This document shows, one piece after another, positions 1 through 29,122 of a stretch of DNA of 44,087 nt; position 1 is the stretch's first letter, and every line of letters starts with the position of its first letter. The DNA lies in IMG/VR virus record IMGVR_UViG_3300034012_002569, positions 1-44,087 of that record. One strand, given 5' to 3'. The stretch comes from a virus. Under the pieces are notes generated by a model that searched no databases, was not told where the DNA came from, and saw nothing but the letters and a program-made list of their open reading frames with translations. The position numbers and the translations under genes were made by a program.

Positions 1-85
1 GAACTGGGGCCTCAGGTGCTATTCGAGTTACTCTTCCATATCTAAAGATGTCTTTGCAACTATCACCTATAACTAATATTTTCAT
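1..85 (-). CDS. HldE/RfaE-like sugar kinase, N-terminal fragment (3' end beyond window)
   Basis: Only the first 28 codons are inside the window. They begin MKILVIGDSCKDIF and continue to an APEAPV segment. This is the opening of PfkB-fold heptose-phosphate kinases of the HldE/RfaE type, where a first beta strand with G-D is followed by R-(I/L)-x-PEAPVP. The ATG overlaps the stop of the preceding Gmd-like gene (ATGA), so the two are translationally coupled. The place at the end of a sugar-nucleotide operon fits activation of a sugar precursor. The family is likely from this short piece, but the substrate and whether a nucleotidyltransferase domain follows cannot be seen. Confidence 0.6.
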   Translation of the reverse strand, partial: MKILVIGDSCKDIFRYGRVTRIAPEAPV

Positions 86-1092
86 CGTTTTAAAAATTTA
101 CGTCCTGAATTTACTTTATTTCTCCAATAGTCCAAAAGATCTTTCATAGTTGTTTCAAAAGAGATTTCTGGTTTCCATCCTGTGTGGTTTCTAAATTTTG
201 TTGTGTCTGGTATTTGCAAATCTGCGTCAATTGGTCTTAAACGCTCTGGGTCAGTTACTATTTCAATATTAGGAACAGTTGATTGATTGATTAAGAAATC
301 AAGCATATCAGCTATTTTACAAGTGTATTCACCCCCAATATTATAATATTCACCTGATGTAGGGTTAATTGTCACTAACATATAATATGCTTTAACAGCG
401 TCTCTAACATCAGCATATGTTCTTAATGAATCTAAATTCCCAACATATATTTTAGGTTCTTGCAATCCAGCTTCAATCATTGCTATTTGTTTAGCAAATG
501 TTGATTCAGAGAATACATCTCCTCTTCTAGGACCAGTATGAGTAAACATTCTAGTAGTCATAATAGTCATCCCATATGCTTCAGCATAATAACGACCTAC
601 TAAATCAGTTCCTACTTTAGATATAGCATAAGGTGATGCTGGGTGGAATGAACATTCCTCATTAATAGGTAATTTTTCTTTAGGTACTCTACCAAATACT
701 TCACTTGATGCACAAACATGAATTATAGCATTTTTATATTTTGAGCCTCGTAATGCTTCTAATAAATTAGTTGTTCCTAAAATATTAGTTTGTAATGTTT
801 CAATTGGTGAATCAAAACTAGTTTGAGGATATGATTGGGCAGCTAAATGAAAAACATAATCAGGTTTTGATTTATTTATAGCTGATATTAATGAAGCTAA
901 ATCATTTAAATCACCATATACTAACTCAATGCGTTCTTTTTTATTAATGTCCTCAGATAAATGTTCAATATTTTCTAATGAATCATTCCATCTACATAGA
1001 CCATAAATTTTCCAATCTGTATTTTCTAATAGGTAATCAACTAAATGTGAACCTACCATTCCTGTAATTCCAGTTATTAAAACTTTATTCAT
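82..1092 (-). CDS. gmd: GDP-mannose 4,6-dehydratase-like SDR
   Basis: A 336-residue extended short-chain dehydrogenase. The N-terminal NAD(P) motif is G8-I-T-G-M-V-G14. The active site has S130-E131 in the ASSEVFG block and Y155-xxx-K159. The C-terminal PERLRPIDADLQIPD block followed by TGWKPE is typical of GDP-mannose 4,6-dehydratases. The family makes GDP-4-keto-6-deoxy-mannose, the branch point to fucose, rhamnose, perosamine and colitose. The start overlaps the end of the next SDR gene. It sits with a ColD-like dehydratase and GDP-fucose-synthase-like reductases, so a GDP-deoxyhexose route is the best reading. Exact nucleotide specificity is inferred. Confidence 0.85.
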   Translation of the reverse strand: MNKVLITGITGMVGSHLVDYLLENTDWKIYGLCRWNDSLENIEHLSEDINKKERIELVYGDLNDLASLISAINKSKPDYVFHLAAQSYPQTSFDSPIETLQTNILGTTNLLEALRGSKYKNAIIHVCASSEVFGRVPKEKLPINEECSFHPASPYAISKVGTDLVGRYYAEAYGMTIMTTRMFTHTGPRRGDVFSESTFAKQIAMIEAGLQEPKIYVGNLDSLRTYADVRDAVKAYYMLVTINPTSGEYYNIGGEYTCKIADMLDFLINQSTVPNIEIVTDPERLRPIDADLQIPDTTKFRNHTGWKPEISFETTMKDLLDYWRNKVNSGRKFLKR

Positions 1093-2048
1093 TATTTTTT
1101 ATTATTTATATACCATTCAACTGTTTCCTTAATTCCTTCTTCAAAAGTATAAGATGGTTCAAATCCTAATTCAGTATTAATACGTTCTGTGCTGACCATT
1201 CTAAATGGTATAGTAGTTGGTTTTGAATCATCATAAACAACTTCAGGTGTTTTACCAGTTGCCTTTAATATAGCATTAACAATATCTCCTACAGTGACAG
1301 TATACCCAGCTCCAACATTATATGGTCTCATAGGTTCACCTTTTTCTAATATTAGTAAAGCTGCTTTAACAACATCTTTAACATATAAAAAATCTCTTAC
1401 TACATCTGGTGTACCCCATACTATAAATGGATTTTCATCATCTAAAACTCGTTTAATCAAAGCAGGAACTACATGGCATGTTTTAGGATCAAAATTATCA
1501 TTAGGACCATAAATTGCAGTTCCACGAGCCAACATTATTTCCATTCCTGAGAATTTATAAACATGTTCCATTAATTTTTCTCTATAACGACGCATCCAAC
1601 CATATCCATAATATGCTTTATATGGTTCATCATCCCAAAATTCATCTTCTTTAATTGGGTAACGTCTATCAGGATATCCTGTTGAACTATTTAGATCTAA
1701 AAATCTTTTAATTTTTAATTTATAAGATGCTTCTAGTACATTACCTAATACTAATATGTTTTGCATTGATATTTGAATATCTGTAGGAACTGTAGATGGG
1801 TGTGCTATTTTACCTCCTGAGTGGATCACATAATCTGCTCCTTCTATTAATTTAAGACAATCTTCTAGTTTTGTTAAATCAATATTTTCAATAATTTCAA
1901 TATTCTCATTTTGAATTTGGAGTGGTTTTTCATGAGTATGAGTTCTAACTTTTGCTCCTCTTTCTAATAATTCTAAGATATAGTGAGTACCTATGAATCC
2001 TGAGCCTCCAGTGACTACTACTATTTTATCTTTATAGAAATCTTTCAT
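1092..2048 (-). CDS. GDP-L-fucose/colitose synthase-like SDR epimerase-reductase
   Basis: A 318-residue extended SDR with the NAD(P) motif GGSGFIG at residues 14-20 and an NSST block at 120-123. The segment YGPNDNFDP followed by HVVPALI is characteristic of GDP-L-fucose synthase (Fcl/WcaG), and colitose synthase ColC is related. The usual Y-xxx-K catalytic pair appears as Y149-G-W-M-R153, so arginine replaces lysine. The gene overlaps its neighbours by 1-17 nt. It probably epimerises and reduces a 4-keto sugar made by Gmd and the ColD-like enzyme, but the substrate is an inference and the altered dyad could change activity. Confidence 0.75.
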   Translation of the reverse strand: MKDFYKDKIVVVTGGSGFIGTHYILELLERGAKVRTHTHEKPLQIQNENIEIIENIDLTKLEDCLKLIEGADYVIHSGGKIAHPSTVPTDIQISMQNILVLGNVLEASYKLKIKRFLDLNSSTGYPDRRYPIKEDEFWDDEPYKAYYGYGWMRRYREKLMEHVYKFSGMEIMLARGTAIYGPNDNFDPKTCHVVPALIKRVLDDENPFIVWGTPDVVRDFLYVKDVVKAALLILEKGEPMRPYNVGAGYTVTVGDIVNAILKATGKTPEVVYDDSKPTTIPFRMVSTERINTELGFEPSYTFEEGIKETVEWYINNKK

Positions 2049-2724
2049 ATTTTTTTAAATTGTTAATTGATGTTTTATTATATTTATTATTTAATTTATA
2101 AATAGGATTTGTAAATTCCAAATTACTTTTATAAGTATATTCTCCTAATTGTGTGGTAGAATTGATAATTTGTTTTAGTTCATTTAAAGTAATATTAGAA
2201 TTAGATACAAAATCAATCACTCCAGAATAACCTAAATAATCATTACTTATAAAAAACTCAACTAAATCATCCATAAGAATATAATTAAATGTTGAGTCTT
2301 TTGATAATGATATATGATCAATATTAGATTTAATCTTAGTTAGGTGATTAGGTTTCATAGTTGGACCCAACATCATAGAACATCTTAAAATTAAATCCTT
2401 ATCATCTAGTAATGTTTCTGAGAATTTTTTAAAAAAAGAATACATATTATGATATTCTTGATAAACATCTATAGTTGATATATAAATAAATTTATTATAT
2501 TTTAAATTTTTAAGACGTTGAGTTAGAAGAATATTATCATCTAGATATTTTTTATAATCAGTAATAATATTTTCTTTATTAAACGCGCAATGTATTATAG
2601 TTTGATAACTTTCATCTTTTATAGAATCAAAATTATCTCTATTTAATCCTAATGAGTTAGGTAAATTATTATATAGATGCTTACCTAAGCCACTATTAAT
2701 TCCTGTTATTAAAAAATCTTTCAT
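2032..2724 (-). CDS. short NAD-dependent epimerase/dehydratase-like SDR
   Basis: A 230-residue SDR, shorter than the roughly 310-330 residues usual for nucleotide-sugar epimerases. The N-terminal nucleotide motif is GINSGLG at residues 8-14. S83 and Y95-xxx-K99 form a plausible catalytic set. The C-terminal substrate domain is reduced and rich in Asn and Lys. The gene lies between two Fcl-like SDRs and overlaps the one downstream by 17 nt. It may be a 4-ketoreductase for the same GDP-sugar pathway. Family assignment is good; the reaction is unknown. Confidence 0.7.
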   Translation of the reverse strand: MKDFLITGINSGLGKHLYNNLPNSLGLNRDNFDSIKDESYQTIIHCAFNKENIITDYKKYLDDNILLTQRLKNLKYNKFIYISTIDVYQEYHNMYSFFKKFSETLLDDKDLILRCSMMLGPTMKPNHLTKIKSNIDHISLSKDSTFNYILMDDLVEFFISNDYLGYSGVIDFVSNSNITLNELKQIINSTTQLGEYTYKSNLEFTNPIYKLNNKYNKTSINNLKKYERFL

Positions 2725-3695
2725 TAGTGATTTACAAATGCGTTATAACGTTTATCTAAAATTTCTTTATTATTCAGAAACCACTCAGTAGTTCTTTTAA
2801 TTCCTTCTTCTAATGATACTGAGATGTCAAATCCATGTGATTTAGCTCTAGTCATATCAAATAAACGAATTTTATCTCCAGCTGGTTTATCAGTTAGCCA
2901 TTTTACTTCTAATGGTTTATTAGAGTATTTAACCACCATATCAACCACTTCTTTAATTGAGTAACCTTCTCCTGAGCCTAAGTTTAATGGTTGGGTAATT
3001 CCATTTTCAACAGCAAATATCATTCCTAAAGCTACATCATCAGCATGAATAAAATCTCTAATTGTTGAGCCATCACCCCAAACTTCCAATATATTATTTT
3101 CTTGAGCTTTTCTAATCAATGAAGGAACAACCATTGCATTTGCTGGGTTGAAATTGTCATATGCTCCATATACATTAGCTGGTCTAACAATAGATACTTT
3201 ATTCCATTCATACTGAATAGAATATGCTTCTGCTTGCATTTCACCCATTCTCTTAGCCCAACCTGCAAAACGATCATTAGGCGATGGAACTGTATTTAAT
3301 ACATCATCTTCTTTAAATACATCTGCTGGGGCGTATACTCCAACTGAGCTAGTATATAAGTACCATTTAACATCTGCTCTACGAGCTGCTTCCATCATGT
3401 TAGTATTAAATTGAAGCATCGGTACCATAAAATCAGCTGGTTGTTCAGCACACATTTTAGGTGAGCCTTTAATACCCACTAGATTAAAGACATAATCCAT
3501 ACCATTACAAATTTTTTCACACTGGTCAAAGTATCTTAAATCTATTTTTTTATACTTTACTCCTTTAGGTAAATCTGAAGGTTGGGTTAAGTCTGCTATG
3601 GTTACTTTAGCTCCTTTTTCTAGTAAAAACTTCACTAATGAGCGGCCAATCATTCCACCACCACCAGTAACTAAAACTTTTTGATTTTTAAACAT
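2724..3695 (-). CDS. GDP-fucose-synthase-like NAD-dependent epimerase
   Basis: A 323-residue extended SDR with the glycine-rich motif GGGGMIG at residues 11-17, S116-S117 in the TSS block, and RPANVYGAYDNFNP followed by VVPSLI as in Fcl-type enzymes. The catalytic region reads F143-A-G-W-A-K148, so lysine is present but the tyrosine expected four residues before it is alanine. The stop and start overlap neighbouring genes. It probably works in the same deoxysugar pathway as its neighbours. The missing tyrosine may mean an altered mechanism or a shifted tyrosine. Confidence 0.75.
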   Translation of the reverse strand: MFKNQKVLVTGGGGMIGRSLVKFLLEKGAKVTIADLTQPSDLPKGVKYKKIDLRYFDQCEKICNGMDYVFNLVGIKGSPKMCAEQPADFMVPMLQFNTNMMEAARRADVKWYLYTSSVGVYAPADVFKEDDVLNTVPSPNDRFAGWAKRMGEMQAEAYSIQYEWNKVSIVRPANVYGAYDNFNPANAMVVPSLIRKAQENNILEVWGDGSTIRDFIHADDVALGMIFAVENGITQPLNLGSGEGYSIKEVVDMVVKYSNKPLEVKWLTDKPAGDKIRLFDMTRAKSHGFDISVSLEEGIKRTTEWFLNNKEILDKRYNAFVNH

Positions 3696-4860
3696 TATTT
3701 AATTTATTACAAAGGTTAATAATTTGTTCATCTGTTAATTCAGGATGGTTACCGATATAAAGTGAGTTTAAGTGAATATAATCAACTACAGGTAGTCTAT
3801 CATTAATTCGATAATTAAACTTTTTTAAATATGGTTGAAGCGCTTGATTCCCACCTCCCGCGGTCCCTAATCTATACTCTACTTTTTCTTCTTCTAATAT
3901 CTTACAAACATCTTTTAATTTATTAACATTAGACCATTGTAGTATTAATGGTAAAGCAAAACTACTATTTCCTTGAGTTGTAAAACTAGTCATGAATTTA
4001 CTTGAATCTAAATGATCCAACCATGTTTTAAGATTCCCAACACGTCTGTTAATATTATAATCAATACGTTTCATTTGCTCAATCCCTAGTACAGCATTTA
4101 ACTCAGTACTTCTCATATTAAACCCAGCTACAGCAAATGTAAATAATGGATTTAATTTAGGATATTTGTTTTGATAATCATTCTGCAATTCAGTTGATGC
4201 TTCTCTAGTCATACCATGTGAGCGGAATAATTTAGCTAAATCATATAATTTAGGATTATTAACACATACCATTCCACCTTCAATAGTTGTTATATGATGA
4301 CCAAAATAAAATGAAAATAATGAAATATCTCCTATTGAGCCTATTTTTTTATCACCAAACATAGCACCATGTGACTCACAACAATCTTCAATTAAGATTA
4401 AGTTATTATCTTTAGCTATTTTAATAATCTCATCATTAATACCATTAAAACCTAAACAATGTATCAATACAATTGCTTTTGTTTTAGGAGTGATAGCTCG
4501 TTTAATATTTTCAGCTGTTATAGCTAAATTATTAAAACTTATATCTACAAATACTGGTGTCATTCCTAATTGAGCTACAGATGAAATATCTGATACCCAT
4601 CCTAAAGGTGGTACTATAATCTCTCCCTCACCTAATAATTCTTTAACCATAGCTATTGAGATATAATTAGCTGATGCTCCTGAATTAACCATAACACTAT
4701 GTTTAACACCTAACCATTCAGACCATATGTTCTCAAATTCTTTTACTTTAGGTCCATTTGTAAAACGTTCTCCGTTTAAACAAAAATCAGCTAATACTTC
4801 TCTATCTGTTTGAGAAATATTATCATTAATAAGAGGCCAATTAAAATTACTTTGTCCCAT
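3688..4860 (-). CDS. colD: ColD-like GDP-4-keto-6-deoxymannose 3-dehydratase (PLP fold)
   Basis: A 390-residue DegT/DnrJ/EryC1-fold PLP enzyme. The PLP-lysine region of ordinary sugar aminotransferases is replaced by SFYFGHHITTIEGG, which puts histidine (H188 with this start) where the Schiff-base lysine would be. Colitose-pathway ColD uses exactly such a histidine to remove the C3 hydroxyl. D159 in IEDCCESHG would bind the PLP ring nitrogen, and the C-terminal LYIGNHPEL also resembles ColD. I chose the ATG at 4860; an in-frame ATG lies at 4872. It overlaps the upstream thiamine-enzyme gene by 14 nt. The predicted product is GDP-4-keto-3,6-dideoxymannose. Confidence 0.8.
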   Translation of the reverse strand: MGQSNFNWPLINDNISQTDREVLADFCLNGERFTNGPKVKEFENIWSEWLGVKHSVMVNSGASANYISIAMVKELLGEGEIIVPPLGWVSDISSVAQLGMTPVFVDISFNNLAITAENIKRAITPKTKAIVLIHCLGFNGINDEIIKIAKDNNLILIEDCCESHGAMFGDKKIGSIGDISLFSFYFGHHITTIEGGMVCVNNPKLYDLAKLFRSHGMTREASTELQNDYQNKYPKLNPLFTFAVAGFNMRSTELNAVLGIEQMKRIDYNINRRVGNLKTWLDHLDSSKFMTSFTTQGNSSFALPLILQWSNVNKLKDVCKILEEEKVEYRLGTAGGGNQALQPYLKKFNYRINDRLPVVDYIHLNSLYIGNHPELTDEQIINLCNKLNNV

Positions 4861-5383
4861 AATACTCAGCATGTTCAATAATTAATGTTGATTTACCATC
4901 TTCTCTTTCATAAGCAGTTTGAAATGCTTCAAATATTTGTTCAGGTTCTATTAACTCAACTACCTCTACTTCAGTAAGCATTTTTCTAATTGCTTCAGTA
5001 TGGTTTTGAGTATGTTGAGGACCAGCGCTAAATGGAACTTTTGATCCAACTGCTACTCTAATAATAACTTTTGGTTTCATATCCCCATTAGACATATCTT
5101 GCATTTTATCTAAATGGTTAACTAATTGATTTAAACCTAAGATAAAGAAATCAAATCGAGGGTAGCATGTAATTGGAACCCATCCTGTCATAGCCATTCC
5201 TGTAGCCATTCCTAATTGAGTTTCTTCAAGTACTGGTAGTTCAATTCGTTTGTCTTGAGGTACTTTTTCCATAGTATTTGAGATAGCGTGGCCACTAAAA
5301 CCAATTGCTTGTCCTGTAAATACTGTATTAGGTTTGGCTCCAAGCCATTCCATTGCTCTAACTAATTCAAATTTGTATTTCAT
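4847..5383 (-). CDS. thiamine-diphosphate enzyme, pyrimidine-binding (E1 beta/transketolase-like) subunit
   Basis: A 178-residue protein matching the pyrimidine-binding domain of transketolase and 2-oxoacid dehydrogenase E1 beta subunits. LPVLEETQLGMATGMAM (around residues 49-65) carries the conserved glutamate that activates the ThDP aminopyrimidine, and CYPRFDFFILGLNQLVNH follows as in E1 beta. It lacks the C-terminal lipoamide-interacting domain of true E1 beta. It lies immediately after the gene for the matching diphosphate-binding subunit, 5 nt away. In this sugar cluster it likely transfers a two-carbon unit to a keto-sugar rather than serving central metabolism; that is an inference. 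Confidence 0.75.
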   Translation of the reverse strand: MKYKFELVRAMEWLGAKPNTVFTGQAIGFSGHAISNTMEKVPQDKRIELPVLEETQLGMATGMAMTGWVPITCYPRFDFFILGLNQLVNHLDKMQDMSNGDMKPKVIIRVAVGSKVPFSAGPQHTQNHTEAIRKMLTEVEVVELIEPEQIFEAFQTAYEREDGKSTLIIEHAEYYGTK

Positions 5384-5388
5384 AATAA

Positions 5389-6015
5389 TTAAAAATTAAC
5401 CCATTTTCCTGTTCCATGATGTGGATATGACATTTTATAAGAATAATAAATAACATTCTCAGGCACATCCATTCTTTTACCCCAAGCAATATCAGTAGGT
5501 GTGTGAACACTTAAGTTATTATCTTCAACTACAAATTGTAATGGTAGATTAAAATTCTGAGAGTATTTGTATGCTTCATGAAACACTCCTGTTTCCATAG
5601 TCATATCACCTATAAAACACCAAACTCTACGAGGTGAATTTTTCCTTTTCAATCCCATAGCTGCTCCTAATGATAATGGAACAATTCCTCCTACAATAGA
5701 TGAAGCGTAAAAATTAGGACTAACATTATTAGTACCCATACTTCTACCTTCAGATATCCATGAGAACAATTTCTCAGAATCAACTCCATGAAGTAAAGCA
5801 TGATAATGGTTTCTCCAAGCTGAGAATACCCAGTCATCAGGATGAATATATTGGAACAATTCTATTAATTGTTCTTCATTATTTTTAGATAGATGAACAG
5901 GTCCTTTTACCTGTCCTGCTTCGTAAGCGTCTTTTACTCTATCTTCAAAAGCAATAAGTTCTTGAGGTGTCATATTGACATCTCTAACTTTAGTGTATTG
6001 TGATGGTATTTTCAT
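5389..6015 (-). CDS. thiamine-diphosphate enzyme, diphosphate-binding (E1 alpha/transketolase-like) subunit
   Basis: A 208-residue protein with the ThDP diphosphate/Mg motif: G136-D137-M-T-M-E-T-G, then about 29 residues, then N166-N167. RNHYHALLHG (68-77) and the SPNFYASSIVGG region also match E1 alpha subunits. It is much shorter than E1 alpha (about 320 residues), so it is a minimal domain that must pair with the downstream beta-like subunit. A variant phage promoter (TTGGAA-N17-TATATT) ends 7 nt before the ATG, making this the first gene of a sub-operon with the ColD-like gene. Acetoin- or pyruvate-type substrate is unknown. Confidence 0.75.
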   Translation of the reverse strand: MKIPSQYTKVRDVNMTPQELIAFEDRVKDAYEAGQVKGPVHLSKNNEEQLIELFQYIHPDDWVFSAWRNHYHALLHGVDSEKLFSWISEGRSMGTNNVSPNFYASSIVGGIVPLSLGAAMGLKRKNSPRRVWCFIGDMTMETGVFHEAYKYSQNFNLPLQFVVEDNNLSVHTPTDIAWGKRMDVPENVIYYSYKMSYPHHGTGKWVNF

Positions 6016-6022
6016 ATAATTT

Positions 6023-6051
6023 AATATAATATTATTTTTTTAATTTTCCAA
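6023..6051 (-). promoter_or_regulatory. phage promoter, variant -35 (TTGGAA-N17-TATATT)
   Basis: Reading the minus strand, TTGGAA (6051-6046) is followed by exactly 17 nt and TATATT (6028-6023). The ATG of the E1-alpha-like gene starts 7 nt later. It has the same architecture as the eight strict copies elsewhere in the window, with two changes in the -35. Confidence 0.6.
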
Positions 6052-6057
6052 GATATT

Positions 6058-6939
6058 TTAAACATTCTTTATAATGTTTACTGTTGTTGATAATGAATCC
6101 AATGGTTCATTAATAGTATATTTATGAGTTTTTCCTATAGATTGAATTACTTCAGAAGAATGATATGTGTACATATTTGGATCATATCCTTCATCATATA
6201 TGTGAGAATACTCACTATTAATCATAGTTGCTATATCTATTGATACTCTAGATTTACCATTTTCCTTAATTAAAGTTCTATGTAAACAAGCATGATCCAT
6301 TATACCTAATTTTCCTTTAGTTAATGTTCCTAATATATTAAATTGTTCATATCGAGTATTTCCTTCATCAAAACTTTCCGCTTTATCTAAGTAATTATCA
6401 TGAACATTAATTGGTTCATTAAATTCAACTGTGTTGTTATCTATATCTCCTAAAACACCTATTAATAACTGGCAATCTCCTTTATGGCCTATCCAAGCAT
6501 CAGAATGAAATTTACTAGTGTAATATGGTCTATTTTTAGTATCAGTACTCTCATTTGAATTTTTATATCTAATATTAGGTAGAACCATTTGTCCTATATG
6601 AGAATATAATCCTAAATTAGTTAATATTTTATTAATACTAAATTGTATTTGAGTATATTGATCTTCAATTTCTTTTTTAGGTTTAATAACTCCATTTGGA
6701 GTTTTATTAGGTAGATTTAAGATTAAATCATTATTATCTTCTAAAAATGTATCACTCCAAATAAATTCCTTATTATAAGCTAAACTTAAAGATTTAAGTA
6801 TATAGTTTTTAACAGACTCAATTAAGTTATTATAATCATTTTCATCAATATCATACAATAATACTAAATCATTTAATGATAGATAATTTTTAGGTAAGTT
6901 TTTATAAACTTTTTTTCTAGTTTCAATAATAGTATTCAT
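6058..6939 (-). CDS. Fe(II)/2-oxoglutarate dioxygenase-like protein (phytanoyl-CoA hydroxylase type)
   Basis: A 293-residue protein with a double-stranded beta-helix oxygenase signature: SKFHSDAWIG gives the H145-x-D147 iron ligands, MDHACLHRT supplies the distal histidine (H216 or H220), and R231 in KSRVSID would bind 2-oxoglutarate. The order and spacing (about 70 residues) fit the PhyH family. The first 120 residues are unrecognised. It sits between a methyltransferase and the thiamine enzyme in the glycan cluster, so hydroxylation of a sugar or lipid-linked intermediate is plausible. Substrate unknown. Confidence 0.65.
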   Translation of the reverse strand: MNTIIETRKKVYKNLPKNYLSLNDLVLLYDIDENDYNNLIESVKNYILKSLSLAYNKEFIWSDTFLEDNNDLILNLPNKTPNGVIKPKKEIEDQYTQIQFSINKILTNLGLYSHIGQMVLPNIRYKNSNESTDTKNRPYYTSKFHSDAWIGHKGDCQLLIGVLGDIDNNTVEFNEPINVHDNYLDKAESFDEGNTRYEQFNILGTLTKGKLGIMDHACLHRTLIKENGKSRVSIDIATMINSEYSHIYDEGYDPNMYTYHSSEVIQSIGKTHKYTINEPLDSLSTTVNIIKNV

Positions 6940-6940
6940 A

Positions 6941-7861
6941 TTATTTTTTAATTTTCCATATTACTGATGGGTATCCTTCTAAATATAATGAACCTCCAAA
7001 TAGCCTTTTCTTTAGAATTATTTCAATTTTTCCTTCACTTTCTAATTGTTCTAAATAAGATAAATATCCTTTTAAATAATTTCTCTTTTCAGAATACATT
7101 ACACATAATTGATCAACTAGACTATCTTTATCTAAAAGTTCTGGGATTGGTTCAAAATTAATACAAATGTCAGGTTTTTTAACTAAAAGAAAATCAATAA
7201 AATCCTTATAATTTTCACCTATTTGTTCTAAAGCATTACAAGTGAACACAGCACTACTTTCAGGAATGTCTATTTGGTAATCAGGATTAAAGAAATCAAA
7301 ATTATATCCTTTTATTTTATTATTTATTCCTAACTCATTTATATTTTGAATAATATTTTGTGATGAAGTAGCCCAATCTAATCCTATTAGGTTGATATTA
7401 TTATTAAATTCTCCAAATCGTAATAAATGATAAGCAGGACCACAACCAAATTCAAATACATTATTATACTTATTTCCTATATATTCATGTAATATAGCAT
7501 CTACTAATATAACAAGTTGATAATAATCAAAATATTTAATATTACTTTTTATAAAATCACCTTTCCACCTCATGACATCATACTTTCCAAAATATTTTGG
7601 AACTAAACTACTTACATGATTCCCAGCTTTTAATAGTTCAAGATTCTCATCCCATCCATTTTCCCATTTTTCTAAACGATGTTTACCTGCTTTTTCTAAA
7701 TTTAGATTAATATGATGAATCATGTCTAGTATAACTTTATCTCTTTCTTGTTGAGTTAAAGTTTGATATTCAAGATTAAAATCTTCTATAGTTTGTTTAC
7801 AATAATTGCTGATTGGGAAACCAACAATATTTTCTACATCTTGTGTTGTTATTTTTTTCAT
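6941..7861 (-). CDS. SAM-dependent methyltransferase
   Basis: A 306-residue protein with a Rossmann-type methyltransferase core: VFEFGCGPAYHLLRF (about 135-149) is motif I, followed by LIGLDWA as the acidic second strand. AVFTCNALEQIG is a motif IV-like segment, with F-T-C where many enzymes have a D/N-P-P. The N-terminal 130 residues are an unrecognised helical region. It lies one base after the oxygenase start and four bases from the RmlC-like gene. It could methylate a sugar (C- or O-methyl) in the same pathway; that role is inferred from context. Confidence 0.7.
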   Translation of the reverse strand: MKKITTQDVENIVGFPISNYCKQTIEDFNLEYQTLTQQERDKVILDMIHHINLNLEKAGKHRLEKWENGWDENLELLKAGNHVSSLVPKYFGKYDVMRWKGDFIKSNIKYFDYYQLVILVDAILHEYIGNKYNNVFEFGCGPAYHLLRFGEFNNNINLIGLDWATSSQNIIQNINELGINNKIKGYNFDFFNPDYQIDIPESSAVFTCNALEQIGENYKDFIDFLLVKKPDICINFEPIPELLDKDSLVDQLCVMYSEKRNYLKGYLSYLEQLESEGKIEIILKKRLFGGSLYLEGYPSVIWKIKK

Positions 7862-7865
7862 ATTC

Positions 7866-8342
7866 TTATTTATCTCTTTTTGATAGTATTGGATTATTAC
7901 TTGGCCAGTGAATGTTTATATTTGGATCATTCCATTTTAAAGTAAATTGACTCTCAACATCCGGATATTCTCCTGGGTAAGACCATTTATAGAAGAATGT
8001 AGCTTCTGAGCTTAAAACAAAATGACCATTAGCAAATTTAGGTGGGATTAAAACTTGTTTTCTATTCTTAGCTGTTAATACTATCCAATCCCATTTTAAA
8101 TAATTTTCAGAATTAGGTCTATTATCAACAATAACTAAATATACTTCTCCTGCTAAACAAGTAATTAATTTCCAAGATTTATTATCACCATGTAATCCTC
8201 TTAAAACATTTTGTTTTGATATAGAAACTTTATCATGGTTAAAATGTAAATCACTTTCTTCTTGTTTATACAGTGTAAATAATTCACCTCTAAAATCTTC
8301 AAATACATCTGGTTGGTATACTTTTACTTCTGGGAATATCAT
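7866..8342 (-). CDS. RmlC-like nucleotide-sugar 3,5-epimerase (cupin)
   Basis: A 158-residue cupin of the dTDP-4-dehydrorhamnose 3,5-epimerase family. The block NVLRGLHGD supplies R48 and the catalytic-base histidine H51, and IPPKFANGHFVLS matches the conserved PxGxAHGF region. It is slightly shorter than typical RmlC (about 180). Because the pathway looks GDP-based, it may act on a related 4-keto sugar rather than on dTDP-rhamnose. Its start overlaps the GT10-like gene by 4 nt. Confidence 0.8.
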   Translation of the reverse strand: MIFPEVKVYQPDVFEDFRGELFTLYKQEESDLHFNHDKVSISKQNVLRGLHGDNKSWKLITCLAGEVYLVIVDNRPNSENYLKWDWIVLTAKNRKQVLIPPKFANGHFVLSSEATFFYKWSYPGEYPDVESQFTLKWNDPNINIHWPSNNPILSKRDK

Positions 8343-9220
8343 ATGTTATTTATATTAAAAAAATTATCAAAAAATTGGCTTATATTATTTTCAAAAGTAT
8401 CTTTTTTAGCTAATTCATAATTGTGATTAATATAAGGCAGCATATCTTTATAAATTTCAGGTGTTAAGTTGTTAATAATATTTAATAATTCATTTTCATT
8501 ATTAAATCTAATGATACCTCTTTCATCATACCCAAACTCAGCTATATTAGGGCAGCCCCAATATAATGGAATAGTTTTAGTTAAAAAATTATCACCTATC
8601 TTATTATACCAATTATTGTAGTTTACATTTTCTATAACAATATTAAACATAGAATTATTAAACAACACTCTTCTACCATATCCTATAGGATCTACTCCTT
8701 GAGGAATATGAGATAAATCTTTAGAATAATCAGTATATCCAGGTCTAGTATTAGTTACTTGATCATAATCATCTAAAACATAATACCATTTTTTAGGGAT
8801 TTGAATTTTTTCTTTTAATTTATATACTTCTTGTCTTAATTTATGCCCATCAACTAATTCTTTAGTACCACATAAAAATGAAATATTAAATTCTTTTCCA
8901 CTAATATTGTTTATAAATTCATCATCTAATGTTTGCCCATTATAAGTGAAATTAATAGCATTATCACATTGAGTTAATAACATATCATTCCATGTTAATA
9001 TAGCTGTGTAATAATGACTTAACTTAAGCGTATTAGTATGATAACCAAAAAATTCATTTGGTTCATGTAAGAATAAAAAATTGTAAGGATTTAATTCTAA
9101 CTGTTTAATAGACTCAGGTAATTTATCATACCAAAATGTGATAGGTTTATTACTGTATCTTTGTTTAATGAATAAAAAATAAGGATCATTTTCTGATCTA
9201 AAATTAGAAAGTATTTTCAT
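8339..9220 (-). CDS. GT10-like (alpha-1,3-fucosyltransferase family) glycosyltransferase
   Basis: A 293-residue protein whose C-terminal half matches GT10 fucosyltransferases: FNIVIENVNY (192-201) then IGDNFLTKTIPLYWGCPNI, the nucleotide-sugar site that in the family binds GDP-fucose. The N-terminal half carries the weakly conserved acceptor domain. No signal peptide or membrane segment is visible, so it is probably cytoplasmic. A GDP-fucose-type transferase fits the neighbouring GDP-sugar enzymes; the donor may be fucose, colitose or a derivative. Confidence 0.8.
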   Translation of the reverse strand: MKILSNFRSENDPYFLFIKQRYSNKPITFWYDKLPESIKQLELNPYNFLFLHEPNEFFGYHTNTLKLSHYYTAILTWNDMLLTQCDNAINFTYNGQTLDDEFINNISGKEFNISFLCGTKELVDGHKLRQEVYKLKEKIQIPKKWYYVLDDYDQVTNTRPGYTDYSKDLSHIPQGVDPIGYGRRVLFNNSMFNIVIENVNYNNWYNKIGDNFLTKTIPLYWGCPNIAEFGYDERGIIRFNNENELLNIINNLTPEIYKDMLPYINHNYELAKKDTFENNISQFFDNFFNINNI

Positions 9221-9223
9221 ATT

Positions 9224-9847
9224 TTATTTATTAAATGAGACAATAGAATATCTAGAATTTAAAGCAAATGACTCAACAGAACTGACAAAGTGAGGTGATC
9301 TAAATACTTTATTATTTAGTAATACTACTCTATTGAATTTAGGAAAAATGGATTCACATAATTCTAAATCATCATGTGATACTATATTTAATATTCCTCC
9401 CCAATCCCATCTCCATTCTTTATTAACATAATAAATTAAATTAATAGTCCCAGCGTAATCATCAATATGTGTTCTATAATGATTATCTTTATCTAATTTA
9501 TAACATCTAACATCAAATTCATCCACATGAAATGGGGATACAGATTTTAATAACGGTACTAATATGTTATTAAATGTATTTGTGATTAAACTAGAGTTCT
9601 CTAAATTAGATGACCTATTAAATTTAGCTGAGTAAGATTCTGTCTCTTGAGGAAGGTATGGGTTAGGTGATTTAAAAACATGACTGTAATGTTTTTCTCT
9701 TACTTGATTAAATAAATCCCATTCAGTTTCTTCATTATAAGCATCATAAATTTTTTCTGCTAAATCTAAAGATAAGACATTATCTATAACTGTAAATCCT
9801 TTAGTATTAAGATTTTTAATGTTTTCGGATGTATAAAGCGTTTCCAT
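9224..9847 (-). CDS. 2-oxoglutarate/Fe(II) oxygenase (prolyl 4-hydroxylase-like)
   Basis: A 207-residue protein with RTHIDDYAGT giving H127-x-D129, then H186 in SPHFVSSVE and R199 in SRYSIVSF, the HxD...H...R set of 2OG-Fe(II) oxygenases of the prolyl-4-hydroxylase type. W145-R-W-D-W-G-G precedes the distal part as in that family (W-GG-L). It overlaps the FkbM-like gene upstream by 32 nt. Many phages carry such genes; the target (sugar, peptide or nucleic acid) is unknown. Confidence 0.75.
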   Translation of the reverse strand: METLYTSENIKNLNTKGFTVIDNVLSLDLAEKIYDAYNEETEWDLFNQVREKHYSHVFKSPNPYLPQETESYSAKFNRSSNLENSSLITNTFNNILVPLLKSVSPFHVDEFDVRCYKLDKDNHYRTHIDDYAGTINLIYYVNKEWRWDWGGILNIVSHDDLELCESIFPKFNRVVLLNNKVFRSPHFVSSVESFALNSRYSIVSFNK

Positions 9848-10451
9848 AGTTATTTAATGTGTTTAAGTATTTTCTTTCAAAATTGTATTGATTTAAATAT
9901 AAGTCTAAATCTTCTAAAATACAACATTCTTTATATATTTCTTTCTCATTTACTTCAGTGTAGATAATATCAAACTCATTAATTATATCTTTTAATCCTT
10001 TTAAAGCTAATATTTCAGCTCCTTGTAGATCTAAAACTAATGTGTTAAATTTACCATGTAATGAATTTTCATTAAAAATAGTTTCTAATGTTTTAGTTTT
10101 TAATTTTAATACATCGGTAACAATAACATTAGGATGTAAATCTTTATGTTCACCTAATTCTAAAATTGATGAACTTAAAGTATTATTTGTTATTTTAAAC
10201 TCAACTTCTACTCCATCTTTATCACCTATCACCTCATTTATAATGTTTAGATTAGGTATATTATCTAAATTTTGTTTAACTAAATATTCTATAGCTTCAA
10301 TCCAATATATACTATTAGAGTCTGTGTATTTTAAATATACATCTAATTCTTCACATTTATGAGCTCCAACATGTAATATTCCTTTTACATTTAATTTAAA
10401 GAAATTTATTAAATTGTCAATAATTTCTCCTGAGTATTTTTCTTTTATCAT
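9816..10451 (-). CDS. FkbM-family methyltransferase
   Basis: A 211-residue protein. GILHVGAHKCEE (24-35) is the SAM-binding motif I and VLDLQGAEILALKG near residue 150 is the FkbM hallmark D-x-(Q/E)-G-(A)-E. FkbM enzymes O-methylate sugars and polyketides. Placement among glycosyltransferases supports sugar O-methylation of a surface glycan. Its start overlaps the upstream gene by 4 nt. Confidence 0.8.
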   Translation of the reverse strand: MIKEKYSGEIIDNLINFFKLNVKGILHVGAHKCEELDVYLKYTDSNSIYWIEAIEYLVKQNLDNIPNLNIINEVIGDKDGVEVEFKITNNTLSSSILELGEHKDLHPNVIVTDVLKLKTKTLETIFNENSLHGKFNTLVLDLQGAEILALKGLKDIINEFDIIYTEVNEKEIYKECCILEDLDLYLNQYNFERKYLNTLNNYGNALYIRKH

Positions 10452-11368
10452 ATAATATTTTTTTCTTTTATCATTTGAACTCCTTTATTTAAGTATTCCA
10501 TCATTCTAGCTTCAAATTTTTCTCTTTGTTCTTTAGCTCCTACTTTTATTTTTAAAAATTCTTTATATGAACTAGTAATGTCTCTATCTTTCCAATCACC
10601 AACAGAATATTCAAAAATAGTTTGTCCTCTTAAAACATACTGTTGAAAATCAACTCCAAGAACTTTAATATGCTCTGAAAGTAAATTAGAGTACCAATCC
10701 CAAGGTCCATAACCTATCCAATCATCATGTACTGGGCATAAGTCTTCATAGAATGCTTTGTTATAGATGTCAAACCAAATAGCCCATTTACTCCTCGCTG
10801 TAGGCTCTAAAAACATATCACTACTTGCTGATTTTAGATTATACCTAATGTCAAATATATCTACATCATTCCATTTTTCATAAGGAACATTCATATATTC
10901 TTTGTTAGTGATCTCATCCCAAGTATTGTCCCACATTTTATGTATCTCAGGAGTTATAACAAAATATTTATTTTGTGCTAATCTAGCTGATTCTATTAAT
11001 GAAAAAAGTAAATGTTCACTAAAGTATATATCAGGACATACTGGTATGTAGTAATCAAATTCTTCTCCGTATGCTATCTTTTGCATGTCTAGTAGACCAT
11101 AATTTTCTTCACCATCATATATGATTGAATTATGTTTATAGTCTTTAAGAAGAACAGCTAAATCATTATACTTTTTAATAAAAAATTCTTTAGGTAATTC
11201 ACTGTTATCCCAATCTGTTATATAACTAGAAAGATTTAAATGTGTATCAATAGTAACTTCAACATCGTCTTTTAAGTAATACTTTGATTTTTTAAATTGA
11301 GTATATGATAATAAAGCATAATCTATTTGCCATGGCATTATTAAATAAAATACTTTAACTCGAATCAT
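10448..11368 (-). CDS. putative glycosyltransferase
   Basis: A 306-residue protein rich in Trp, Tyr and Asp. IPVCPDIYFSEHLLFSLIESA (about 118-138) looks like the nucleotide-sugar/metal region of GT-A folds, and CPVHDDWIGYGPWDWY later resembles acceptor or base motifs. No family can be named with certainty. Overlaps of 4 nt on both sides tie it to the glycan operon. I call it a glycosyltransferase mainly from overall character and context. Confidence 0.5.
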   Translation of the reverse strand: MIRVKVFYLIMPWQIDYALLSYTQFKKSKYYLKDDVEVTIDTHLNLSSYITDWDNSELPKEFFIKKYNDLAVLLKDYKHNSIIYDGEENYGLLDMQKIAYGEEFDYYIPVCPDIYFSEHLLFSLIESARLAQNKYFVITPEIHKMWDNTWDEITNKEYMNVPYEKWNDVDIFDIRYNLKSASSDMFLEPTARSKWAIWFDIYNKAFYEDLCPVHDDWIGYGPWDWYSNLLSEHIKVLGVDFQQYVLRGQTIFEYSVGDWKDRDITSSYKEFLKIKVGAKEQREKFEARMMEYLNKGVQMIKEKNII

Positions 11369-11868
11369 AATTTACCTTGTTTTATTTCTTCAACAATTTG
11401 AGCTATAGTCAATTTTCTACCTAATATGTTCATTTCATTTCTTACACCAGGTTGAATTAAATTCACCCAATATAAAAATTCTTCTAAACTTAAAACATAC
11501 CTTGTAGTATCTTGAATTACAGGTTCTATTCCTTCACTTAATTGTTTTTTAAAATAATTTAAAATAGTATGAGGTGTTTTAACCCACTCACATACTTCTA
11601 TCCTAGCAATAGTATAACTTTTAAAAGTATTTCGAATATACTCCTCAACTTCACGTTTATGTTGAGTGTATCTATCATGTTTATAATATATTCCTAAATT
11701 TGAAAAATATACTATATGTTGATCAGTTGGGACAGTTTTAAGTAAATTAAATTCACGAGTATATTCATTTTCATCTAAACATGAACTATTACTAACTCCT
11801 GAGGCAAAAAATACAATATCTTCTTTATCTGTAAGAACTTTGGCTACACTTCCATTTCCTATTATCAT
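11365..11868 (-). CDS. reduced NAD(P)-binding SDR-like protein
   Basis: A 167-residue protein starting MIIGNGSVAKVL, a minimal Rossmann glycine motif, followed by IVYFSNLGIYY and Y-T-Q-H-K, which fits the S...YxxxK pair of short-chain dehydrogenases. It is about half the length of a nucleotide-sugar epimerase and lacks a clear substrate domain. The ATG lies within the last codons of the preceding gene in an AAAAGTTATG context shared by many starts here. It may be a specialised or degenerate sugar epimerase. Confidence 0.55.
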   Translation of the reverse strand: MIIGNGSVAKVLTDKEDIVFFASGVSNSSCLDENEYTREFNLLKTVPTDQHIVYFSNLGIYYKHDRYTQHKREVEEYIRNTFKSYTIARIEVCEWVKTPHTILNYFKKQLSEGIEPVIQDTTRYVLSLEEFLYWVNLIQPGVRNEMNILGRKLTIAQIVEEIKQGKL

Positions 11869-12095
11869 AACTTTTCAGTAAAAATTTCAATACATAAAAC
11901 ATTTTCATCATTTATCATAACCATACTTCCATCAATACATTTAAACTTAGTAAATTGACCTTGTTTTATAGATGATGTTAATATACCATGGTATGTTCTT
12001 TTAATTCCACCTACAAAATGTATAATCTGAGTTACTACTTCTCCTTGAGTATTAACTGTAGATTTCATATTTGGATAGTCTACTTTGTTTTCCAT
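11865..12095 (-). CDS. small conserved-looking protein, unknown function
   Basis: A 76-residue protein from the ATG at 12095 (MENKVDYP); an upstream in-frame start would be TTG. It alternates hydrophobic and charged residues with TYHGILTSSIKQGQFTKFK and GSMVMINDENVLCIEIF, suggesting a small all-beta fold, perhaps Sm-like or OB-like, but I do not recognise it. It overlaps the upstream gene by 16 nt and the downstream one by 4 nt, so it is part of the operon. Confidence 0.6.
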   Translation of the reverse strand: MENKVDYPNMKSTVNTQGEVVTQIIHFVGGIKRTYHGILTSSIKQGQFTKFKCIDGSMVMINDENVLCIEIFTEKL

Positions 12096-12490
12096 GATAT
12101 TTCCCAATCTTTAAAATCAGCTGCTAAGCAATCAATTTTATAGTCTTTACGACCACCCATTACTTCTTGAATTTGATTTTTAGATGTATTACGAATACCA
12201 TTTAACCCATGAGTTAAAGCTAATGCATTTGGTCCTGATTTCCCACTTCTAACATTTGATTCATTATGCCAGATATGAAGATTCATTTGTGATAAAACTA
12301 CAATAGCACGAATTGTCTCAGCGGTGATTGGCTCTTTACATTCATCTAAATGTAATTGAATATCATGTACTATATCAGCTATTTCAGCGGCATATTCTGC
12401 TTTATGATCTGTAATGAATACTTCTTTTAACTGTGTAATTGATAGACGATCAATCAATTCACTTAATGTTGGTAAATACTTTCTTTCCAT
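12080..12490 (-). CDS. hypothetical helical protein in glycan operon
   Basis: A 136-residue mostly helical protein beginning MERKYLPTLSELIDRLSITQLKEVF. Similar PTLSELIDRL openings occur, to my recollection, in small proteins of marine phages near glycosyltransferases, but no function is known to me. It contains GPNALALTHGLNGIRN and ends WEISWKTK. It follows the GT2 gene by 6 nt. Confidence 0.6.
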   Translation of the reverse strand: MERKYLPTLSELIDRLSITQLKEVFITDHKAEYAAEIADIVHDIQLHLDECKEPITAETIRAIVVLSQMNLHIWHNESNVRSGKSGPNALALTHGLNGIRNTSKNQIQEVMGGRKDYKIDCLAADFKDWEISWKTK

Positions 12491-12496
12491 TTTTAT

Positions 12497-13132
12497 TTAT
12501 TTTAATTGTCCTAAATCTATTTTAGCGTAACGTTCATTTTGTTTTTCTTGTCGATCAATAGTCTTATTATGAATTATGCTCCATTCTTCTTGAAGTGGTA
12601 ACTCAATATAAGTTTTATATCCTTCAACCATACCATGTACTTGATGTCCAGTCCATTTAATAGACGGATCATTTTTGTAGATACGTTTTTGACAATCAGG
12701 CCAATTTACCCATCCTTGTTCATTTACAATCCATCCCCATTTTTGTATATGTTCAGGTGTTAAACCTGGAACTAAATTTTTACGAGGTGAGATAAGTAAG
12801 TCAACTGGGTTAAGTTCTAAGACTGTTTTTAGATTTTGAACTAAGAATTCTTCTGGTATCTCGTCAGCATCAATTTGAAAAATATAGTCTCCAGAACATT
12901 TACTGTTCATAAAGTTTTTATTTTCTAAAAAGTTTTGCTGGAAATTAAATGGGTGTGAGTGTATATCATTTTTATATTGATCTAATACATTTAGTACTTC
13001 ATCAGTAACTCTGTTTTGATCATAAACAACAACTATCTCATCCTCAGAATCTATTCTATCTTTTAAATATGTAATGAGATTTAATAATTCTTCATGCTCA
13101 TTACAAACTGTTAAACCATAACTAATTTTCAT
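12497..13132 (-). CDS. GT2-family glycosyltransferase
   Basis: A 211-residue GT-A enzyme. It opens ISYGLTVCNEHEELLNLI, the standard family 2 first strand, and has D88-A-D90 in YIFQIDADEIPEE as the metal-binding DxD. The later WPDCQKRIYKN block resembles core-LPS glycosyltransferases of the WaaE/KdtX type. A strict phage promoter ends 7 nt before the ATG. It probably transfers a sugar to a lipid- or polysaccharide-linked acceptor at the inner membrane face. Confidence 0.8.
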   Translation of the reverse strand: MKISYGLTVCNEHEELLNLITYLKDRIDSEDEIVVVYDQNRVTDEVLNVLDQYKNDIHSHPFNFQQNFLENKNFMNSKCSGDYIFQIDADEIPEEFLVQNLKTVLELNPVDLLISPRKNLVPGLTPEHIQKWGWIVNEQGWVNWPDCQKRIYKNDPSIKWTGHQVHGMVEGYKTYIELPLQEEWSIIHNKTIDRQEKQNERYAKIDLGQLK

Positions 13133-13139
13133 ATAACCT

Positions 13140-13168
13140 AATATAATATTATTTTGTTAATAAGCCAA
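13140..13168 (-). promoter_or_regulatory. phage promoter TTGGCT-N17-TATATT before GT2 gene
   Basis: On the minus strand TTGGCT (13168-13163) and TATATT (13145-13140) are 17 nt apart. AGGTTAT then ATG follow directly, the same 16-mer (TATATTAGGTTATATG) as at the folE start. The -10 to ATG gap is only 7 nt, which predicts a leaderless or nearly leaderless mRNA. Confidence 0.75.
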
Positions 13169-13607
13169 TATAATCTAAAGCTTCTATAAAATCTCTTTCA
13201 TTAAAATGTTGGAGTGTTTCCATGTCCATTCTATATTCATAAAACTTACCTGGTTGTTTTGGAATTGGGAATTTATGTTTTTCTTCTTCAATTACTGGGA
13301 CTGCTTTTACAGCTGCCCACATCCAATTATCTGGTTCTGATCCGTTAGCAAACACCATACCTTGTTTAGGTTCATTAATTGTTTGTGGCAACCATGTTAA
13401 TTTAGTCTCAGGATCAATCCAAGCTAATGCTTTATATAACTCAGGAAGTACTTCAAACTGTTCAATGTAAAATTCACTTCCCTCAGTCATAAGTGAGTTA
13501 GTCCAGAACCCACATGATAATGACATCCAATTTGTTATTTCAGGTGTGACCTGTGTTTCATAACACAAGTCACCTCCTGATTTAGGACAATTAATAATTT
13601 TATCCAT
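13149..13607 (-). CDS. hypothetical protein with N-terminal CPxxGG motif
   Basis: A 152-residue protein starting at the ATG at 13607 (MDKIINCPKSGGDLCYETQV); the longer reading would need a TTG. The opening resembles half a zinc ribbon (C-P-x-x-G-G-x-x-C), though no second CxxC pair is present. The body is aromatic- and acid-rich with KLTWLPQTINEPKQGMVFANG and DNWMWAAVKAVPV. Overlap with the GT4 gene upstream puts it in the glycan operon. Function unknown. Confidence 0.6.
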   Translation of the reverse strand: MDKIINCPKSGGDLCYETQVTPEITNWMSLSCGFWTNSLMTEGSEFYIEQFEVLPELYKALAWIDPETKLTWLPQTINEPKQGMVFANGSEPDNWMWAAVKAVPVIEEEKHKFPIPKQPGKFYEYRMDMETLQHFNERDFIEALDYIGLLTK

Positions 13608-14907: not shown

Positions 14908-14918
14908 ATAACTTTTTA

Positions 14919-19378: not shown

Positions 19379-19693
19379 TTATATTTTATCAAAGTATTCA
19401 GCTTTGTATTCAACATCATTACCTTCTCTTTTTCCTGAGGCTACTATAAATTTACCATCTTTGATATATCCTACAGTTCCTTCAGGTACATAGAGTTCAG
19501 TTCCATCATATCCAGTAGGATCATCATACTCCCTAGCGTTAGGGACTGTTCTACCTTTAGGTCCAGGGTAGTCACTATATTCTTCAACATAGTACCAATC
19601 TACATTAGATCTATGGGTTGGCTTAATTTCGTTTTCAGCTAATGCTTTAACGATTTCCTCTTTGATGATTTGTTTTAATTCAGATACTTTCAT
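19379..19693 (-). CDS. small protein with MKxSxLKQIIKEEI N-terminal tag
   Basis: A 104-residue protein beginning MKVSELKQIIKEEIVKAL, nearly the same N-terminus as three proteins at 32.9-34.5 kb. The rest (HRSNVDWYYVEEYSDYPGPK, then VPEGTVGYIKDGKFIV) is unrelated to them and looks like a small beta-rich domain. The I-K-E in the tag fits the (I/L)-x-E cleavage rule of T4-like prohead proteases, so it may be a virion internal protein. The gene ends just before a UUCG terminator-like hairpin. Confidence 0.65.
   Translation of the reverse strand: MKVSELKQIIKEEIVKALAENEIKPTHRSNVDWYYVEEYSDYPGPKGRTVPNAREYDDPTGYDGTELYVPEGTVGYIKDGKFIVASGKREGNDVEYKAEYFDKI
19652..19693 (-). repeat. coding repeat for IIKEE tag, copy 1
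   Basis: The first 42 nt of the gene share most bases with the three copies at 33.5-34.5 kb. This copy is the most diverged, with changes giving V3 and E5. Confidence 0.7.
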
Positions 19694-19963: not shown

Positions 19964-20236
19964 TCAATAGTCTCCGTACATGTTAAATTTCTTTGGGGGA
20001 GGAGGTGGGGGTGGTGTTGCTTTTTCAACCACTACACTATCAATAGCATATAATTTACCTTTCATAGGTGACAATCTAAAATCACATGATAGTCCTCCAG
20101 CTTCTTCAAAATAACCTTCTAATGCTTCTGTTAATGATTTATACACATGATTAGGATCACTTAACAATACCCACTGGTCTCCCGGTGGGTATCGCTCAGC
20201 GATCAATTTTAATTCTTCTTTGACTTCGGTAGCCAT
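19964..20236 (-). CDS. small protein with polyproline tail, coupled to groEL
   Basis: A 90-residue protein whose ATG overlaps the groEL stop codon (TAATG). The body has ERYPPGDQWVLLSDPNHVYKS and a helix rich in Glu, Ala and Leu. The C-terminus has seven prolines in a row (residues 75-81), then KKFNMYGDY. I do not recognise it. Translational coupling to groEL suggests it could be a chaperonin accessory factor or substrate. Confidence 0.6.
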   Translation of the reverse strand: MATEVKEELKLIAERYPPGDQWVLLSDPNHVYKSLTEALEGYFEEAGGLSCDFRLSPMKGKLYAIDSVVVEKATPPPPPPPKKFNMYGDY

Positions 20237-21852: not shown

Positions 21853-21853
21853 A

Positions 21854-23266: not shown

Positions 23267-23272
23267 ATTTGT

Positions 23273-27043: not shown

Positions 27044-27050
27044 ATAACCT

Positions 27051-29121: not shown

Positions 29122-29122
29122 A

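Follow-up and report, generated by a model that had tools for sequence, protein, structure and literature searches.

A phage gene run that may direct synthesis of a nucleotide-activated 3,6-dideoxy-heptose with the help of an E1-type thiamine enzyme

The GDP-3,6-dideoxy-heptose pathway of Campylobacter jejuni HS:5 and HS:11 is the closest described counterpart of the phage gene block treated here. For HS:5 the passages cited describe a dehydratase, a C3-dehydratase, a C5-epimerase and a C4-reductase on a GDP-heptose route (PMC10440746). The block lies at positions 82–6015 of a linear virus record of 44,087 bases (IMG/VR IMGVR_UViG_3300034012_002569), the whole of which is called the window, and is part of a longer gene run in which three of these four enzyme families are also found, the short-chain dehydrogenase/reductase (SDR) that would be the reductase being less clear. 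The phage genes differ from those of C. jejuni in being phage-borne, in having a PfkB-type and not an HddA kinase, in two Fcl-like SDRs without an intact YxxxK site, and in an E1-type thiamine enzyme, which the C. jejuni pathway as described in those passages does not use (PMC10440746). The chance is about even that the product of this operon is a nucleotide-activated 3,6-dideoxy-heptose, in all likelihood with a further acyl-derived branch.

Parallels for the thiamine enzyme come from other sugars. YerE is reported to extend C4 of a 3,6-dideoxy-4-keto sugar by a two-carbon branch in a thiamine-dependent reaction on the way to yersiniose (PMC4753412). It is described as a single acetolactate-synthase-type flavoprotein (PMC10338323, PMC4753412), in contrast to the split E1-type pair and heptose-type dehydratase of the window. 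Closer in architecture are AviB1/AviB2 of avilamycin, Pau11/Pau12 of paulomycin and EvdU5/EvdS3 of everninomicin, alpha/beta pairs resembling pyruvate dehydrogenase (PDH), as does the window pair, which are proposed in the sections cited to add a pyruvate-derived C2 unit to 4-keto sugars (PMC4753412, PMC4425429, PMC10338323). Those sugars are, however, pentose- or hexose-derived, and Pau11/Pau12 have 325/345 residues against 208/178 here. Among marine T4-like phages, heptose genes of SynMITS9220M01 (PMC7378029) and the rfaE gene of pelagimyophages (PMC7029224) have been taken as related to lipopolysaccharide; the genes named in the parts cited are a kinase, isomerase and 6-epimerase or rfaE, and not a heptose 4,6-dehydratase with a C3-dehydratase and a thiamine enzyme. 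A literature search over titles and the openings of abstracts in journals readable without subscription gave nothing on this thiamine family or on a GDP-heptose 4,6-dehydratase or 3,6-dideoxy-heptose in phages, and nothing to the point on cyanophage transketolase and lipopolysaccharide.

What is observed directly in the following is the order of the genes, their clades and motifs, and their co-inheritance. The enzyme at one end of the block (SDR1) had been named Gmd in a sequence-only reading of the window. It scores 381 bits (54% identity) against PDB entry 7us5, which we take to be the solved C. jejuni GDP-heptose 4,6-dehydratase, consistent with a reference list, versus 159 bits (34% identity) against E. 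coli Gmd. The NCBIfam gmd model TIGR01472 gives 189 bits, with a cut-off of 415. In a 28-row tree, into which 7us5 and 2pk3 entered by their aligned parts only, SDR1 shares an eight-row group (support 97/96) with 7us5, Bellamy 219, Azospirillum and Ensifer, and ten Gmd-type rows including E. coli form a separate branch (100/100); the SAR11 row, a row from a metagenome-assembled genome (MAG; L267) and the Pseudomonas row sit on long branches and their placement is unsure. Tree position, PDB scores and the sub-cut-off model score together rule out the Gmd identity. SDR1 is a member of the GDP-heptose 4,6-dehydratase clade, and this activity is its predicted function; the dehydratase motif (S130, E131, Y155 and K159) is kept in all 110 sequences. 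In Synechococcus phage Bellamy the SDR1 homologue adjoins HddA-like (279 bits) and HddC-like (62 bits) genes, and open reading frames (ORFs) of both kinds lie near the homologue on an Ensifer plasmid, these names standing for best-scoring models under their curated cut-offs or for BLAST matches.

Two further genes point the same way. The cupin epimerase RmlC1 has eight best PDB matches of 149–160 bits, of which five are labelled GDP-heptose enzymes, compared with 93 bits for RmlC proper; the closest are epimerases of the C. jejuni type, for C3 or C3/C5 of GDP-heptose. H51 and Y118, which would act as a His/Tyr dyad, are kept in 133/133 sequences. At the window edge begins a PfkB-type kinase, complete on a second contig (L097, see below). 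For a relative of this kinase (on L018, 73% identical to that of L097) the best NCBIfam model is TIGR02198 rfaE_dom_I (137.7 bits; cut-off 345). Related phages have an rfaE_dom_II-like nucleotidyltransferase gene directly after that of the PfkB-type kinase. PfkB/HldA-like kinases normally belong to the ADP-heptose route. Because of the SDR1 clade, the best matches of RmlC1 and the heptose-kinase-like character of the adjoining PfkB protein, the sugar is very probably a heptose and not a hexose, and the dideoxyhexose route proposed earlier is not supported, on the same three counts.

The predicted C3-dehydratase has the DegT fold and, among PDB entries, matches ColD best (188.6 bits, 33% identity). 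Its H194 aligns with H188 of ColD, the histidine that takes the place of the lysine binding pyridoxal phosphate (PLP), and is histidine in all 96 distinct homologues from the fetched loci. The motif CxCxC, which we take as a stand-in for the [2Fe-2S] cysteine cluster, occurs neither in these 96 nor in the window copy, and an iron–sulphur 3-dehydratase of the RfbH/E1 type is thereby ruled out. From what is known of the family, the protein would be of the ColD kind, fed by glutamate. E. coli ColD (PDB 2gms) likewise combines the histidine with the lack of an iron–sulphur cysteine motif, although its substrate is a GDP-hexose and that of the phage enzyme is probably a heptose. In yersiniose synthesis a His-type 3-dehydratase makes the substrate of YerE. 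The sequence-only reading had proposed both a ColD-type dehydratase with histidine for lysine and C3-deoxygenation by it; the ColD match and the conserved histidine bear this out, and deoxygenation at C3 is predicted with good confidence. The step itself cannot tell heptose from hexose, because the C. jejuni HS:5 and HS:11 C3-dehydratases, which act on a GDP-heptose intermediate, are given in the passages cited as 62–67% identical to hexose enzymes (PMC10440746). The masses published for the C. jejuni route are 634.08 and 616.08, followed by 600.08 once the C3-dehydratase has acted with PLP and L-glutamate (PMC10440746).

Beside the ColD-like gene stand the two genes of a thiamine enzyme, as the earlier reading had noted: TPPpp, which resembles an E1 alpha subunit, and TPPpyr, which resembles an E1 beta subunit. 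AlphaFold models of both are of high confidence (predicted local distance difference test 94.2 and 94.6, respectively). All 50 Foldseek matches listed for TPPpp are E1 alpha subunits of PDH or of branched-chain keto acid dehydrogenase, and E1 beta takes the first 15 places for TPPpyr, ahead of transketolases and DXS. NCBIfam scores for TPPpp are 89 bits for PDH E1 alpha and 19 for transketolase, and the Pfam transketolase N-terminal model finds no match in the window pair at E≤0.001; a true transketolase is thus disfavoured for these genes. The TPPpyr catalytic Glu E53 and H124 (of a GPQH motif) are kept in 129/129 sequences, and D137 and N166 of the GD...N motif of TPPpp in 136/137. Since TPPpyr consists of the PYR domain only and lacks the E1-beta C-terminal domain, the enzyme is unlikely to serve in a 2-oxo acid dehydrogenase complex. 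Being two genes of the E1 kind, the pair is also not a YerE-like single chain of the acetolactate synthase type. In cyanophages both parts are fused in one protein (phrog_34187, without assigned function). A single frameshifted gene is ruled out, the two genes being adjacent in 126 of the 186 loci that hold both and at least 1.5 kb apart in 28. The family is rich in phages: at least 563 of at least 599 pattern stretches were relatives in viral contigs, compared with at least 11 of at least 595 in genomes.

Another use of the thiamine family is seen where radical-SAM-like genes (by eye) take the place of sugar genes. In an uncultured large-genome phage (L003, 18397–20615) such genes are interleaved with the pair or flank it, and pairs in similar company occur in a Desulfobacterales MAG (L010, 7547–10935) and a Nanoarchaeota MAG (L015, 7568–10880).

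The company of these genes was compared in sets limited to the 80 best-scoring rows per scan, the scans having turned up 563, 304, 590 and 577 relatives. Around 80 SDR1 homologues the kinase is present at 37 loci, RmlC1, ColD and TPPpp at 55 each, SDR4 at 60, SDR2 at 62 and a thiamine enzyme at 69. At 80 viral loci around true Gmd, which are shorter (median 12.3 kb vs 17.0 kb), the HldA/PfkB kinase, RmlC1, ColD, SDR4 and SDR2 are all absent, TPPpp is found twice and Fcl 67 times; among the 43 of these loci of at least 12 kb the same five are still absent and TPPpp is again found twice. The 80 loci centred on the thiamine enzyme hold RmlC1 (76), SDR4 (72) and SDR2 (65). TPPpyr and ColD are adjacent in 86 of the 120 loci that carry both. 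In some phages an unrelated full-length E1 alpha/beta pair fills the slot between RmlC1 and ColD: the 80 ColD loci comprise 52 with the short pair seen in the window (mini pair), 17 with the full-length pair, none with both and 11 with neither, and where at least 3.5 kb of upstream sequence is available one or other pair is present in 64/69. As the two pairs replace each other beside ColD, action of the thiamine enzyme on the keto-sugar would fit, and the suggested tie between the thiamine enzyme and ColD gains support from both the adjacency and the mutually exclusive replacement. In two MAGs an HddA-like kinase, TPPpp, TPPpyr and ColD lie in a row, with flagellar genes nearby (by eye).

Three more SDRs complete the block. 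SDR4 and SDR2 resemble Fcl (33% and 31% identity, respectively), which agrees with their earlier description as Fcl/ColC-like, but the YxxxK site is intact in neither. At position 144 of SDR4 tyrosine occurs in 0/115 sequences and K148 in 115/115. The 111 SDR2 sequences have Y149 (57) or V149 (47) and R153 (57) or K153 (54), the site pairing Y149 with R153, or Lys with a residue other than Tyr, mostly Val (V/A/T). The two families are mostly found together, and since they are kept in most loci they presumably matter. SDR3s, by comparison, retains its triad in 32/32 sequences, gives no PDB match under E 0.05, and is the best candidate for the reductase. Completion of GDP-colitose by the Fcl/ColC-like SDRs is unlikely given the heptose-type first enzyme and the abnormal catalytic motifs, and GDP-colitose as end product is rejected together with the Gmd identity.

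Most likely the genes encode a 3,6-dideoxy-heptose pathway resembling the one in C. jejuni HS:5; the reactions, nucleotide (GDP or another), donor and target that we infer for it are as follows. Together with enzymes of the host or further ones of the phage, the PfkB-type kinase would supply an NDP (nucleoside diphosphate)-D-glycero-D-manno-heptose, from which SDR1 would remove water across C4/C6 to give a 6-deoxy-4-keto-heptose. The ColD-like PLP enzyme, with histidine in place of the Schiff-base lysine, would remove the C3 hydroxyl, and RmlC1 would invert C5 (or C3/C5). The E1-type thiamine pair would decarboxylate a 2-oxo acid, probably pyruvate, and transfer the two-carbon unit to the C4 ketone. 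Reduction of the product by an SDR would follow, for which SDR3s is favoured, and glycosyltransferases of the gene run would attach the sugar to a surface glycan or the virion. The putative sugar would probably dress a surface during infection.

Whether the thiamine enzyme acts on a keto-sugar is evenly poised. A two-carbon branch is still the best guess for its step, with donor and product both putative, and the antibiotic PDH-like pairs and YerE, as parallels, are the reason for regarding a C4 branch as an evenly balanced proposition. The fuller proposal, in which phages build a nine-carbon, nucleotide-linked, C4-branched 3,6-dideoxy-heptose with a minimal E1-type carboligase and at least one unrelated E1 pair was independently recruited for the same step next to the same C3-dehydratase, is tentative and falls a little short of even. 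Most likely the 3,6-dideoxy part of the earlier proposal holds and the hexose part does not, the branch is possible, and the route is a variant of an already known kind of pathway. In place of a colitose-like hexose the finding now concerns dideoxy-heptoses, rare sugars known from the C. jejuni capsule, and would put an entire pathway of this kind in phages. No function has been assigned to the thiamine family (phrog_34187). Should it prove to be a sugar carboligase, a small enzyme in two parts would be at hand that makes tertiary alcohols on sugars, and an unrecognized sugar on phage-infected cells or virions would be indicated. The exchange of the mini pair for another E1 pair beside the same dehydratase offers a direct and cheap handle on function.

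Several points weigh against a dideoxy-heptose operon of this kind. The nucleotide is uncertain, the kinase type pointing to ADP and the SDR1 relatives with HddA/HddC to GDP. The part of the window compared with family libraries revealed no isomerase, phosphatase or nucleotidyltransferase gene for heptose, and none of the core enzymes reaches an NCBIfam equivalog cut-off. SDR4 and SDR2 are without a clear role as well as without an intact YxxxK site. The 80-locus sets are top-scoring rows that share contigs, so their counts are not independent. Finally, the fetched flanks lack ColD in 46 and SDR1 in 38 of the 80 thiamine loci, and the thiamine enzyme must therefore be used in other settings too.

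Of the rival explanations, a modest chance is given to one that retains the same 3,6-dideoxy-heptose pathway but places the thiamine enzyme upstream, as a small transketolase that supplies a ketose phosphate (e.g. sedoheptulose 7-phosphate), the sugar being unbranched. Thiamine genes adjoin heptose kinase and nucleotidyltransferase-like genes in cyanophages S-SM2 and P-TIM68, as they do in two MAGs, and a split true transketolase follows an SDR1 homologue in Azospirillum, but the sequence and fold of the window pair are E1-type, and so is the pair that replaces it beside ColD. Hosts are also expected to own a transketolase. There is a small chance that the sugar is made but placed on the DNA or proteins of the phage itself and not on a host surface glycan. 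The glycosyltransferases of the run and the folE, queC, QueD-like and radical-SAM genes of 7-deazaguanine type, a sign of DNA base modification, would suit such a target, yet no gene ties the sugar operon to base modification, and a survey of marine T4-like phages takes such genes, in the part cited, as O-chain related (PMC7029224). The conversion of GDP-mannose by Gmd and ColD into a 3,6-dideoxyhexose, ending as GDP-colitose or a branched hexose, is very improbable: it can draw on the confirmed ColD-type enzyme, on the Fcl-like SDRs and on a C3-dehydratase step that is not diagnostic, but SDR1 lies outside the Gmd clade, RmlC1 is of GDP-heptose type, true phage Gmd keeps other company and, to our knowledge, colitose synthesis requires neither RmlC nor a thiamine enzyme.

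The features are collected in Table 1. All likely genes of the window are on the minus strand, and 82–6015 is filled by seven contiguous ORFs at spacings of −32 to +5 bp, negative values being overlaps. Over positions 1–9092 the window is 99.978% identical to IMG/VR contig L097, which comes from another metagenome and extends beyond the window edge; because this contig is independent, the arrangement is not an assembly error. The seven tightly packed genes are thus as first described, although the limits set for the block were too narrow, RmlC1 and the edge kinase also belonging to it. Upstream, at 6058–16355, genes of the same strand continue with gaps of −41 to +16 bp, the last ending 42 bp before 6015, so that intergenic distances in the whole run from 16355 to 1 are −41 to +42 bp. 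A dedicated promoter, which had been placed at the start of the block, is rejected, since promoter-like sites number 126, compared with 120.7 ± 10.2 after shuffling, which is chance level, and same-strand genes continue upstream. The two accessory genes between RmlC1 and TPPpp are 6058–6939 and 6941–7861; by eye, 6941–7861 looks methyltransferase-like. The second of the two has a 34% identical relative adjoining an SDR1 homologue in Azospirillum. A Pfam scan of 6058–6939, 6941–7861, 8339–9220 and three other unassigned genes gave no matches.

Table 1. Predicted features of the gene run (positions in the window)
Feature	Positions	Strand	Basis
PfkB-type kinase, heptose-7-phosphate-kinase-like, first 28 codons	1–85	−	full 245 aa on L097
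SDR1, predicted NDP-heptose 4,6-dehydratase	82–1092	−	PDB scores, tree, motif
SDR2, Fcl-like extended SDR, altered catalytic pair Y149...R153	1092–2048	−	PDB match, motif
SDR3s, short SDR, S83, Y95 and K99 intact	2032–2724	−	phrog_540, motif
SDR4, Fcl-like extended SDR, catalytic Tyr absent, S116 and K148 retained	2724–3695	−	PDB match, motif
ColD-like PLP 3-dehydratase, H194 replaces PLP lysine	3688–4878	−	PDB match, alignment
TPPpyr, E1-beta-like pyrimidine-binding subunit, 178 aa, without C-terminal domain	4847–5383	−	Pfam, AlphaFold, Foldseek
TPPpp, E1-alpha-like pyrophosphate-binding subunit, 208 aa	5389–6015	−	Pfam, AlphaFold, Foldseek
Two accessory genes between RmlC1 and TPPpp	6058–7861 (6058–6939, 6941–7861)	−	no Pfam match
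RmlC1, putative cupin sugar C3/C5-epimerase of GDP-heptose type	7866–8342	−	PDB matches, His/Tyr residues
Upstream portion of the run: glycosyltransferases of GT2 and GT4 type, FkbM methyltransferase, 2-oxoglutarate-Fe(II) (2OG-Fe(II)) oxygenase, unassigned genes	8339–16355	−	Pfam, phrog_2170, gaps

The window carries a T4-like replication set (clamp loader, DNA polymerase, ribonucleotide reductase, DnaB-like helicase and UvsX-like recombinase), and a transfer RNA scan of it found none. Gene starts at 1–16355 are without a Shine–Dalgarno sequence and have A-rich, TAAATA-like leaders. Starts of this sort are seen in Bacteroidota, which is a hint to the host. In Synechococcus phage S-SM2 (L001) the product of 22998–23309, annotated 'phosphoheptose isomerase', resembles a small phosphatase of the HAD type (DIDETI motif) and has zero NCBIfam matches; the label looks wrong.

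Elsewhere in the window, GTP cyclohydrolase I, a radical-SAM (QueE-like) protein, a PTPS/QueD-like protein and QueC lie together at 26348–31002, a 7-deazaguanine set that suggests modified phage DNA. Within it, 28615–29136 encodes a second RmlC-like cupin (32% identical to RmlC1), and the adjoining 31157–31963, with a weak DUF6610 match of 25.6 bits under the cut-off, is possibly a base-exchange enzyme. Four otherwise unlike small proteins (19379–19693, 32890–33513, 33515–33865 and 33872–34543) share MK[LV]S[EQ]LKQIIKEEI as a common tag at the N-terminus and have no Pfam match. A phage GroEL (phrog_5725), followed by a GroES-like ORF (by eye), is located at 20236–22156.

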